Source: Psychrobacter sp. GP33 (GTDB taxonomy: Bacteria; Pseudomonadota; Gammaproteobacteria; Pseudomonadales; Moraxellaceae). Taken from it: 64,000 bases of DNA. Where the stretch lies: assembly GCF_014119005.1 (NCBI RefSeq), contig NZ_JACGYX010000004.1, forward strand, positions 62,001-126,000. The letters are read 5' to 3'. The stretch's first letter is position 1; the number at the start of each line of letters is the position of its first letter. Position numbers and translations under genes: made by a program. The notes below the pieces were generated by a model. The model was not told the origin of the DNA and did no database searches. It saw only the letters and a program-made list of their open reading frames with translations. Positions 40,652 to 47,284 of the stretch are shown piece after piece.

Positions 40652-40785
40652 TTTTTTAACTTTAATATTTTATTATGCTTAGCTAATTATTTTTAGTTAT
40701 TCATATCTAATGGTATGGTAGCTACTTAGTATTATTCACTGGTAGTTACCCAACATAAAAAGCACACTATTACTCATAAAAACAC

Positions 40786-40824
40786 ATTATCACGTCTCAT
40801 TATCGCGGCTTATTATCGCTGCTC
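40786..40824 (+). repeat. Three tandem 13-bp repeats upstream of ilvD
   Basis: ATTATCACGTCTC, ATTATCGCGGCTT and ATTATCGCTGCTC lie head to tail, followed by a partial ATTATT; about 65 bp before the ilvD ATG. Confidence 0.7.
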
Positions 40825-40890
40825 ATTATTAAAACCATATTGAGAAGGTGAACCCGTTCATATATCTCGCTTACTCGTAAGGAATATCAC

Positions 40891-42801
40891 ATGGATTATA
40901 ATTCAAAAACCTCTACCGGCGGTCGTAATATGGCAGGTGCACGTGCCCTTTGGCGTGCGACTGGCATGACTGATGGCGATTTTGGTAAACCAATTATTGC
41001 CATTGCTAACTCATTTACCCAGTTTGTACCGGGTCATGTGCATTTAAAAGACTTGGGACAATTAGTCGCACGTGAGATTGAAAAAGCGGGTGGCGTGGCA
41101 AAAGAATTTAATACTATTGCCGTCGATGACGGTATCGCTATGGGTCACAGCGGTATGCTGTACTCATTACCAAGCCGTGATTTGATTGCCGATTCCGTTG
41201 AATATATGGTTAATGCGCATTGTGCAGATGCCTTGGTGTGTATTTCTAACTGCGATAAAATCACTCCGGGTATGTTGATGGCCGCTATGCGCCTTAATAT
41301 TCCAGTGGTCTTTATTTCAGGTGGCCCAATGGAAGCGGGCAAAATTATCGCCAGTACCGTGGCACACAGTCATAATAATGACGGCGGAAGTGATGCGCAA
41401 GGTGTTGACAGTAAAGGCAATGCCATTCGTAAGCTTGATTTAGTCGATGCGATGATGGACGCCGCCGACGACAGTATTAGCGATGAAGATGTCGCAGCGA
41501 TTGAAGCCTCAGCGTGCCCAACTTGTGGGTCGTGCTCTGGTATGTTCACTGCCAATTCGATGAACTGCTTGACCGAAGCCTTAGGATTGGCATTACCGGG
41601 TAATGGCTCGCTATTGGCAACACATTCGCTACGTCGTGAGCTATTTTTAGAAGCGGGTCGCACTATCGTTTCACTTGCCAAACGTCGCTATGAGCAAGAT
41701 GATGATTCAGTGCTACCGCGCTCCATCGCTACCAAAGCGGCGTTTGAAAACGCGATGACTTTAGATATCGCGATGGGCGGTTCAACCAATACTATTTTAC
41801 ATTTGCTTGCTGCTGCTAATGAAGCTGAAGTCGACTTTAAGATGCACGATATTGACCGTCTAAGTCGCGGTGTGCCTTGCCTTGCTAAAGTTGCCCCTGC
41901 TTCGCAAAAATATCATATGGAAGATGTGCATCGTGCTGGTGGCGTATTTGCGCTGTTAGCCGAGCTAGATCGTGCAGGGTTGCTCCATACTGATCTGCCA
42001 ACGATTCATAGCGCGACAATGAAAGAAGCGATTGATAAATGGGATATTATGAATCCTGACAATCTTGAAGCGCGGGCACGCTATATCGCAGCACCAGGCG
42101 GTATTCGTACCACTGAGGCTTTCTCACAATCGAAAGAATGGTCAAATCTTGATGTAAACCGTGAATCAGGTTGTATTCGTAGTGCGCAGCATGCGTATTC
42201 AACCGATGGCGGTCTTGCGGTACTGTATGGTAATATTGCGGAGCGTGGCTGCGTAGTCAAGACAGCGGGCGTTGATGATAGCATTTTAGTATTCACTGGA
42301 CGCGCGCGTATTTTTGAATCACAAGATGATGCTGTTGCTGCTGTGCTTGATGATAATATCGTCGCTGGTGACGTGGTTATCATTCGCTATGAAGGTCCAA
42401 AAGGTGGACCGGGTATGCAAGAAATGCTTTATCCAACGACTTATCTAAAATCAAAAGGTTTAGGTAAAGAATGTGCGCTACTCACTGATGGTCGTTTTTC
42501 TGGCGGCACGTCTGGCCTATCGATTGGTCATGCCAGCCCAGAAGCTGCTGAAGGTGGTGCCATCGCTCTAGTACAAGAGGGCGATACCATTCATATCGAT
42601 ATCCCAAATCGTACCATTAACATGATTGTGGGCGATGCTGAATTAGCTGCACGCCGAGAAGATATGGAAAGTCGTGGCAGCAAAGCATGGAAACCAGTCA
42701 GTCGTGAGCGTCATGTGTCCCCTGCTCTACGCGCCTATGCGGCAATGACCACTAGCGCTGATACAGGCGCGGTACGTGATGTGAGTCAAGTTGAACGTTA
42801 A
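40891..42801 (+). CDS. ilvD: Dihydroxy-acid dehydratase
   Basis: Fe-S enzyme of branched-chain amino acid synthesis: converts 2,3-dihydroxy acids to 2-oxo acids for valine, isoleucine and leucine. The 636 residues include Fe-S cysteine regions [17 protein letters not shown] and [20 protein letters not shown], and the C-terminal [17 protein letters not shown] motif. ATG 40891 has AAGGA eight bases upstream. It is a single gene with its own terminator; no other ilv genes are in the window. Confidence 0.97.
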
Positions 42802-44379: not shown

Positions 44380-45147
44380 TTAACGACTTAATACAGAGCG
44401 CGGATCGATAGGATTACCGTTCAGACGCACTTGGAACTCAAGCCCGACTTGATTTGTCTGTCCGCTATTACCCATGCTGGCAATACGCTGACCGCGTTGT
44501 ACTGAATCTCCCTCTTTAACCAATAGCTCGCTATTATGGGCATAAGCAGTAATGTAATTGTCACTATGACGAATCATAACCAGATTCCCATACTCTTCTA
44601 ACCCGTTACCGGCATACATCACATTACCACCTTGACTTGCAAGAACAGGGTCACCTATGTTTCCTGAGAATAACATCCCTAAAGAGCCTGTTGACTCATC
44701 AAAGTTACGGACGACTTGGTTGCGACTTGGGTATTCATACCCTAAATTTGCATTTGTTGCTACGTCATAAACAGGATTGGCTGATGGGGTATTGATGCCA
44801 GTAGCTATAGGCTGGTTGTTATTACTGCCGACATTAGCACTGCTATTTCTGTAGTTATTTTCATTGCCTTGCCACAATTTAAGATACTGACCGCTGTAAA
44901 TAGTGTACTGACTATCAAGCCCGTTCAGCGAGCCAATTTGGCGATAGTTGAGACGGTAACGAGAGGCAATTTGACTGACGGTATCGCCACGCGTGACCAC
45001 ATGGTAGTTTGGCACCCCTTGAGCATTGGTAATTATCTTGGGACCTGACGCCTGCTGATAGCTGGGCTTTGTGGCACAGCCTGTCATTACAAGTGCTCCA
45101 ATTAGCGCAGCTGTGACAAACGGTGCTTTAAAAATGAGTTTTTTCAT
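44380..45147 (-). CDS. nlpD: LysM/degenerate-M23 lipoprotein (NlpD-like amidase activator)
   Basis: Outer-membrane lipoprotein that probably activates an amidase (AmiC type) during cell separation. Lipobox VMTGC gives Cys24. LysM at about 50-91 (HVVTRGDTVSQIASRYRLNYRQIG...) binds peptidoglycan. A LytM/M23 domain fills 160-255 (GNVMYAGNGLEEYGNLVMIRHSDNYITAYAHNSELLVKEGDSV), but the catalytic zinc ligands look lost: the usual H-x-H and the first His-Asp pair are replaced (YAHN, LEFQVR). This fits the EnvC/NlpD type that activates amidases rather than cutting. It lies directly downstream of surE, as nlpD does in enterics, though pcm and rpoS are absent. Confidence 0.9.
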   Translation of the reverse strand: MKKLIFKAPFVTAALIGALVMTGCATKPSYQQASGPKIITNAQGVPNYHVVTRGDTVSQIASRYRLNYRQIGSLNGLDSQYTIYSGQYLKLWQGNENNYRNSSANVGSNNNQPIATGINTPSANPVYDVATNANLGYEYPSRNQVVRNFDESTGSLGMLFSGNIGDPVLASQGGNVMYAGNGLEEYGNLVMIRHSDNYITAYAHNSELLVKEGDSVQRGQRIASMGNSGQTNQVGLEFQVRLNGNPIDPRSVLSR

Positions 45148-45292: not shown

Positions 45293-46204
45293 CTATGAGA
45301 CTAAGGCAGATAACCGATTTAATGTATGTGTTGGCGTATGATGCACTCTTACAGGCGATATACTGATATAACCTGCTGCGACAGCGTAAACATCAGTATC
45401 GTTTAATACATCTATATCATTCAATACGTCAGCATTATTCAATACGTCAGCATTATTCAATACGTCAGCATTATTCAACGTACCAATATCATGCGTCTCA
45501 ACTGTAATCGCATTAATAGGCTGAACACCTTTTTGCTTAGAAGATAGCTCACCTTTGCGTAAGCTCAGCCAATACGCATCACGTCCCCTTGGATCCGTAA
45601 CGGGATGTACCGGACGAGCGATATGACTGTGACCTAGACGAGTGATTTTGCGCCCTTTAATCTCTGTTATACAATTTACATCAGGGATGTTAACGTTTAA
45701 CACATGATAGGGCAAACCCTTAATCTCTGCTAGTAAAGGCGTCTCATCTAAGAGTTTGACGATTTCGGCTGCTGCTATGTGATACTTCACCATCTCATCT
45801 TGTACATTACTCTTAATCCCGCCACCAACCAGTGACGTTGCTATCGCTGGAATACCGAACAACTGAGCAGTTAATGCTGCGCCGAACGTTCCTGAAAATA
45901 ATACGTCTTGACCTAAGTTTGCGCCAGAATTGATACCAGTAATCACACAATCAAACTTAATGTCACGATATAACTGATTCAGTGCTAAATAAACACAATC
46001 TGCCGGAGAACCAGTTACCGCTATAAATCCCGAGGCTAGTTCCTGTGTATATAATGGCTGAGAAATATTCAATGCACTGGCAGAGCCACTTTGTTCAGTG
46101 GCAGGGGCAACCACTTTTACCACACCTAATGCTGACAATGCCTCATATAAAGCTAATAACCCTGGTGCATGAACACCATCATCATTACTTATCAAAATAT
46201 TCAT
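45293..46204 (-). CDS. surE: 5'/3'-nucleotidase SurE with C-terminal repeat insert
   Basis: Metal-dependent nucleotide phosphatase that also hydrolyses short polyphosphate; stress-associated. N-terminal ILISNDDGVHAPG gives the metal-binding Asp8-Asp9, and CVITGINSGANLGQDVLFSGT is the conserved second motif. At about residues 248-280 there is an insert made of hexapeptide repeats NNADVL x3, then NDIDVL, NDTDVY, encoded by 18-bp tandem DNA units (45384-45479). Total length is 303 versus about 250 for usual SurE. After the repeat the family end YAVAAGYISISPV is intact, so the array is in frame and tolerated. nlpD follows 145 bp downstream. Confidence 0.94.
   Translation of the reverse strand: MNILISNDDGVHAPGLLALYEALSALGVVKVVAPATEQSGSASALNISQPLYTQELASGFIAVTGSPADCVYLALNQLYRDIKFDCVITGINSGANLGQDVLFSGTFGAALTAQLFGIPAIATSLVGGGIKSNVQDEMVKYHIAAAEIVKLLDETPLLAEIKGLPYHVLNVNIPDVNCITEIKGRKITRLGHSHIARPVHPVTDPRGRDAYWLSLRKGELSSKQKGVQPINAITVETHDIGTLNNADVLNNADVLNNADVLNDIDVLNDTDVYAVAAGYISISPVRVHHTPTHTLNRLSALVS
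45384..45479. repeat. 18-bp tandem repeat array inside surE
   Basis: Three identical 18-bp units at 45420-45437, 45438-45455 and 45456-45473 (TTCAATACGTCAGCATTA), flanked by diverged copies on the 45384-45419 side. Multiples of three keep the surE frame open. Confidence 0.92.
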
Positions 46205-46849
46205 AACTGCTCACTATATTTATAGACGACCATCTATCCACTTAACTGCTTTGTTAGGACAAAATTGCTATACTAAGGATAATTATAATTTTAAAAACAA
46301 TATTAATATTAACCAACTTTTGTTGTAATTTTTTTTATCATTATGATAATTTGTTACCGTGATGGTCAGTATATTATTAATACCTTCCAAAATTGAAGTC
46401 ATAGCAAAGTTCAAAAAACGACAATAAATACTTTTATTATAGGCAGTCAGAGTATAACTGAATAGTAAACCGTCATAAACCCAGTTATAAAATCATTGAT
46501 ACTGTTGACATAATATTTGAACGAAACTTTCAATTCAAAGCCATGTATCTTAGAGTTATAACCAAATAAATGAGAATTTTTAGTGCAAAACGGCTCTAAT
46601 AGTAACGAATCGAAACGATAGTTTTCGGTAAATGATCTCATTAGCTCAGGGACAAACGTTACAAAATACTACATGATATATCCCTATCTTAATGTTGATG
46701 TAACTTGTTTATCAATGCTGCGCATATGTTGCTATATCACACTCTCAGCTCACAATACCCCTACACATAAGATGATATTTTATGTGACTTTTGTTTTTTT
46801 TCCTATTACCATAACACCATTCAATCATGCAAAGCGAGTGTCACACCGA
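46205..46849. other. Long AT-rich spacer, 645 bp
   Basis: Divergent region between surE (minus) and the small secreted protein (plus, ATG 46850). It holds an extended -10 motif at 46265-46274 on the plus strand, 575 bp before the next plus gene, too far for a usual leader. A frame from 46447 to 46641 (minus) has no ribosome-binding site or recognisable family. No RNA gene recognised. The region could hide a small RNA or a remnant gene. Confidence 0.5.
46265..46274 (+). promoter_or_regulatory. Extended -10 motif without a near downstream gene
   Basis: TTGCTATACT, identical to motifs at 32651 and 33422, preceded by GACAAAA. Nothing recognisable is encoded in the next 500 bp. Confidence 0.4.
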
Positions 46850-47284
46850 ATGAAAAAGCAATCGATGTTATCTATAGTTTCTATGGCGTCAAAAACAGTA
46901 TCAAAAGTTGGGGTTGCTGGATTAATTACTTCGGTTGCCATGCTGTCTCAAACCACTAATGCGGCAAATAATGCAGGAACCACTATTCCACTTGATATGT
47001 CAGGCATGAATATTACCAAACATGAAATTGCCGTGATGCAAGTGTTATCAGAGATATGCCCACCGATGTTAAAAGGCAATCAAAAACAGCGATTTTATAA
47101 ATCTTATAATACACAGTTGCATGAACTGATGCCTACATTAGATGATCCGAAGGCAGCAATTCAATATTTATCTACTCAGCAGGATTACCGTCAGATTCTG
47201 CAAGGAATGCGTAGCTGGACAATGAGCTTTTCTAAGCAAGACAACAAAGAATTATGTGAAGATATGGCGAATGCCCAATTTTAA
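46850..47284 (+). CDS. Small secreted protein, unknown
   Basis: I start at ATG 46850 (MKKQSMLSIV) rather than the open frame's earlier ATG at 46673, because only the later start gives a signal peptide: basic n-region, hydrophobic core around VAGLITSVAML and an Ala-rich end (TTNAANNAG). The 144-residue precursor leaves about 110 residues, helical, with Cys in SEICPPML and KELCEDM that could form a disulfide. I recognise no family. It converges on the sensor kinase, with a shared terminator between. Confidence 0.65.
   Translation: MKKQSMLSIVSMASKTVSKVGVAGLITSVAMLSQTTNAANNAGTTIPLDMSGMNITKHEIAVMQVLSEICPPMLKGNQKQRFYKSYNTQLHELMPTLDDPKAAIQYLSTQQDYRQILQGMRSWTMSFSKQDNKELCEDMANAQF

Follow-up and report, generated by a model that had tools for sequence, protein, structure and literature searches.

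The surE gene in the analysed window, a stretch of 64,000 nucleotides from Psychrobacter sp. GP33, contains an array of five in-frame 18-bp units at positions 45,389-45,478 on the minus strand, and this array was very likely built by slippage or tandem duplication of the segment encoding the TD motif and tolerated in a flexible spacer. The array, its reading frame and the graded divergence of its units were observed directly, and relatives were likewise seen to carry different tandem units in this spacer and to vary in its length. The findings are best read as recurrent slippage tolerated in a genus-specific variable loop of an often dispensable enzyme.

The 18-bp array and the gene that carries it

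The gene (45,293-46,204, minus strand) encodes a 303-residue protein and is a bona fide surE, for the 5'/3'-nucleotidase SurE, as the sequence-only reading had named it. The protein matches PF01975 with 166 bits (cut-off 22.1) and TIGR00087 with 186.5 bits (cut-off 135.1), while the narrower PRK00346-type NCBIfam models match it below their own cut-offs. Its top PDB sequence match is 3ty2 (E = 1.3e-42). When its AlphaFold2 model (mean pLDDT 81.6, pTM 0.79) was searched with Foldseek, the best 50 of the 72 matches at E ≤ 0.001 were all SurE entries (best E = 9.2e-27); the matches 1ilv ('TM107') and 4zg5 are SurE by name in the PDB sequence matches. In an alignment of 43 SurE proteins, consisting of the window protein and 42 from other bacteria out of 78 distinct ones, D8, D9, S39 and N92 are invariant columns, and S39 is a residue that we take to belong to the metal/phosphate site. 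The DD pair and the Asn are described as residues of this site in the accessible parts of two papers (PMC8475336, PMC3567009). Because the catalytic residues are intact, the enzyme is expected to be active, a prediction from sequence and model.

Both TRF and a comparison of the units revealed three identical 18-bp units, TTGAATAATGCTGACGTA, at 45,425-45,478 on the minus strand, each encoding LNNADV and located, in the coding register, at 45,461-45,478, 45,443-45,460 and 45,425-45,442. They are followed on the same strand by a diverged fourth unit (LNDIDV, 45,407-45,424), which differs from the exact unit at 5/18 positions, and by a fifth (LNDTDV, 45,389-45,406), which differs at 6/18 and includes the TD conserved across SurE proteins. 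The 18-mers adjoining the array on both sides have at least 11/18 differences from the exact unit and are therefore not units. The sequence-only reading had located the array at 45,384-45,479, right to within 5 bases, and its three exact in-frame units are present as described; it had put diverged units on both flanks, but both stand on the C-terminal side of the exact ones. It had also spoken of inserted acidic hexapeptides. The spacer that holds the array is indeed negative, with a net charge of -7 when its first five residues are left out, among the lowest two of 80, but the acidity is mild, with one Asp in each LNNADV. The insertion probably amounts to four units (24 residues) rather than all five, because the last one contains the conserved TD.

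No other tandem repeat in the window comes close to it in strength: TRF reports 45,419-45,478 with a period of 18, 3.3 copies, 100% matches and a score of 120, and the runner-up among its 29 rows scores 62. At lag 18 the sequence repeats exactly over 42 bases, whereas the longest such run at any lag from 4 to 60 was 13 when the window was resampled 40 times under a first-order Markov model. With adjacent, near-identical units, a period that is a multiple of three and a regularity beyond chance, the array is an in-frame coding tandem repeat. The exact unit occurs three times in the whole genome, each time within the surE array, and no copy was found elsewhere in this genome at up to 2 mismatches. 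A dispersed repeat was rejected, as 3 genomic places match at 3 mismatches versus 2 for the reversed control pattern. No match to two joined units was found in viral contigs, and no plasmid or viral relatives were found that could serve for a comparison of strains. The array folds as RNA with a z-score of -1.13, and 31 of 200 shuffles fold as well or better; given this weak score we claim no RNA element. Elsewhere in the window, a 13-bp imperfect tandem repeat, CATTATCGCGGCT, at 40,785-40,829 (3.5 copies, TRF score 62) precedes the start of a long plus-strand ORF (40,891-42,801), presumably ilvD, by about 60 bp.

The spacer and its gene among relatives

The array lies inside a spacer of 57 residues (213-269; 45,398-45,568, minus strand) between YW (211-212) and TD (270-271). 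We measured the length of this spacer by sequence motif across species, with one genome per species; genus lengths other than 24 and 26 were re-checked row by row, and lengths outside the genus combine two motif searches. In 79 of 80 SurE loci from other bacteria the spacer has 13 residues, the remaining one, L090 from Acinetobacter, having 19; these loci are the best 80 of 322 SurE matches and are biased to close ones. Among 20 loci sampled from the family's other genera, it has 13 residues in 12, 17 in one, 19 in four and 35 in three. A further 20 Acinetobacter loci gave 19 residues in 18, 18 in one and 20 in one, so that 22 of 24 Acinetobacter genes have 19 when the four at 19 among the other-genera loci are included. 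In the 80 intact surE genes of the genus of the window, by comparison, the spacer ranges from 17 to 62 residues (mean 31.9, SD 10.3), a genus-wide variability that the sequence-only reading had not noticed.

Spacer lengthening also occurs elsewhere in the family, but its extent is uniform within each genus represented by more than one locus: the genus g11 has a 35-residue spacer at 3/3 loci (L181-L183), and L187, from the genus g14, has 17 residues. SurE is present in 12 of the 16 family genera; genomes G110-G113, G125 and G126, the genomes listed for g7-g10, gave no SurE match, and 30 further genomes without a match lie outside that list. No paper on the spacer was found among the matches listed in literature searches for SurE in Psychrobacter, in Moraxellaceae or with the tetramerization loop, those with Psychrobacter or Moraxellaceae being noisy owing to the common word 'sure', nor was one on the SurE spacer found among those listed for in-frame tandem repeats in Psychrobacter.

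A lag score was computed on the spacer plus six codons and compared with 300 codon shuffles per gene. Tandem structure at p < 0.01 was found in 6/80 genus spacers, namely that of the window, a 12-bp LSSE-type repeat in L041, L042 and L010, a 9-bp DNN-type repeat in L011 and a 30-bp repeat in L009; a 21-bp repeat in L067 stands at p = 0.01. Lag scores of at least 10 occurred in 6/80 spacers (9,096 bp), in 0/80 cores (49,881 bp) and in 0/40 spacers of other genera. A tree of surE computed with the spacer left out requires at least 32 length changes in the spacer, itself 96 bp long on average, versus at least 10 in the core, which averages 624 bp, and at least five changes in the presence of a tandem repeat in the spacer. 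The sister tips L041 and L055 (support 100/98, branches 0.013 and 0.017) differ by exactly one 12-bp unit, either gained or lost. This difference and the other tandem units in relatives' spacers support the slipped-strand origin that had been proposed from the exact copies. Several points weigh against slippage: 74/80 genus spacers do not reach p < 0.01 for tandem structure, a single clade accounts for three of the six that do, at a laxer lag score of 9 the counts are 7/80 spacers versus 4/80 cores, and the difference in unit number that was seen concerns the 12-bp array and not the 18-bp array of the window. Because of the 74, slippage is seen in a minority of spacers and we infer it for the rest.

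The gene itself was matched in 88 of the 105 genus genomes, and the loci of all 88 were examined: 80 have intact spacers, one (L071) runs off the end of its contig, and the other seven (L031, L083-L088) are broken genes. The break in L031 comes down to a single base in a short run of C, in a genome that is 86% complete, and may be an error. In the broken copy L083 (G103) just 3 residues separate YW from TD, and no other spacer shorter than 13 was seen. The decayed surE of G072 (L084/L211), which matches residues 116-301 only and has an in-frame stop, has 18 bp duplicated exactly and in tandem where the spacer begins after YW. For 16 of the 17 genomes without a match (all but G040), we examined the neighbourhood using two synteny markers, a LysM + M23 peptidase gene, ActS/NlpD-like by its profile matches (44,380-45,147, minus strand), and a 203-residue ORF on the other side of surE (46,673-47,284, plus strand). 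A tblastn search (E 0.01) did not find surE between both flanking genes in 14 genomes, where the flanks lie 266-893 bp apart in all but L201 (1,589 bp), compared with 1,526 bp in the window; in L203 and L210 the contig ends before the second flanking gene. The LysM/M23 neighbour was matched in 105/105 genomes, weakly in G040 (E = 1.8e-4), and it persists where surE is absent between conserved neighbours (14 species) or left as remnants in others. In total, 24/105 assemblies contain no intact surE (17 without a match and 7 broken), a genome count and not the number of separate losses on a tree, and one that includes G040, G063 and G087, which lack the neighbourhood check, and L031 with its possible error.

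Build-up of the array and constraint on the spacer

The fifth unit is probably the founder, a conserved sequence copied upstream, because it holds a near-invariant Thr-Asp motif: in the 43 aligned SurE proteins D271 is invariant and T270 is present in at least 90%. The simplest order would be that the conserved segment was duplicated upstream, that older copies diverged and that the three most recent have not yet done so. At the TD site the best-scoring relative, L002, reads LSNDTDIQAV and carries no array, and its spacer of 37 residues is near the 33 that remain when four units are subtracted from the window spacer. Replication slippage, or an equivalent tandem duplication, would then have copied the 18-bp segment encoding the start of the TD motif, adding about four hexapeptides. 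If the spacer belongs to the tetramerization loop and is flexible, in-frame length changes there may cost little and slippage products would persist for that reason; with its catalytic residues intact, SurE would stay active.

The position of the spacer in known structures is consistent with such tolerance. Since W212 and T270/D271 align with chain positions 199 and 213/214 in Salmonella 2v4n (first Met = position 2), the spacer corresponds to about Salmonella residues 199-211. As far as the accessible part of PMC3567009 describes, residues 179-210 of Salmonella SurE form the tetramerization loop, and residues 200-208 are ordered in all wild-type subunits, whereas in two mutants the A subunit shows them wholly or partly disordered. 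The expansion would therefore lie at the end of the loop, at a place already seen becoming flexible. In the window model, residues 217-244 have a pLDDT below 50, which is partly expected because the other alignment rows lack the insert, and block means over 241-270 are 50, 56 and 70, with short helices. The array residues (243-272) thus show short helices rather than clear disorder, a point against a flexible loop.

Constraint on the spacer was estimated from 181 pairs of equal-length genes with a core synonymous difference of 0.02-0.45, other pairs being dropped. The dN/dS was 0.50 in the spacer, 0.097 in the core and 0.157 after the spacer, values that are rough because the pairs are not independent by descent and the spacer alignments allowed no gaps. 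They show relaxed constraint on the spacer and not positive selection. The same data bear on the idea that the spacer is a functional, selected element that acts through its length or charge on the balance of dimer and tetramer or on an interaction of SurE, with slippage supplying adaptive variation in length. The dN/dS is 0.50 and not 1, no spacer among the 80 intact genus genes is shorter than 17 residues although 13 is the usual length outside the genus, and the spacer falls at the end of the Salmonella loop as described in part of PMC3567009; however, the core has a ratio only one fifth as high, the spacer ratio stays below 1, the spacer sequence is not conserved across the genus, and intact surE was not found in 24 of the 105 genomes. 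We therefore regard this idea as unlikely. That the loop is a length-variable tuning element in this genus, its slippage-set length adjusting assembly or allostery from species to species, seems to us similarly improbable; if true, it would provide a natural length series in an otherwise nearly fixed-length loop.

We give very little credence to a strain-level variable repeat that is still active as a tuning or phase-variation locus. Three identical units would fit a recent duplication, and sister species differ by one unit of another array, but the 18-bp period, a multiple of three, lies inside the CDS and keeps the frame, and on/off switching is thus not expected, which sets the array apart from a phase-variable contingency locus; SurE family enzymes are moreover classed as intracellular in the accessible part of a review (PMC8475336). 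An assembly artefact is extremely improbable even in a 29-contig draft genome, as two units differ from the exact one at 5-6/18 positions, no stop interrupts the frame across the array, and similar spacers and repeats occur in relatives.

Comparison with known systems

With tolerated slippage as the preferred reading, the mechanism is not new; it is ordinary slippage in an unusually tolerant loop. Its interest lies in being a clean case of a near-fixed-length loop of a conserved enzyme becoming length-variable within one genus, with slippage intermediates visible in the genus and surE lost in some species, and the natural series of 17 to 62 residues could be used for testing the role of the SurE tetramerization loop.

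The window protein shares with the SurE family (PF01975, TIGR00087) scores over the cut-offs, the invariant catalytic residues, the fold and the TD...GYISxSP C-terminal motif; it differs in its 57-residue spacer with the 18-bp array, compared with 13 residues, in line with a genus-wide range of 17-62. In-frame coding repeats are best known from surface proteins. Like other in-frame coding minisatellites, the array has exact adjacent units, a preserved frame and a low-complexity product, whereas it sits in an intracellular nucleotidase and not in a surface protein. Compared with the Salmonella SurE loop (2v4n, 4g9o; PMC3567009, from the part accessible), the window spacer occupies the equivalent of about residues 199-211, mostly the end of the 179-210 loop, and differs from it in having about 44 extra residues.
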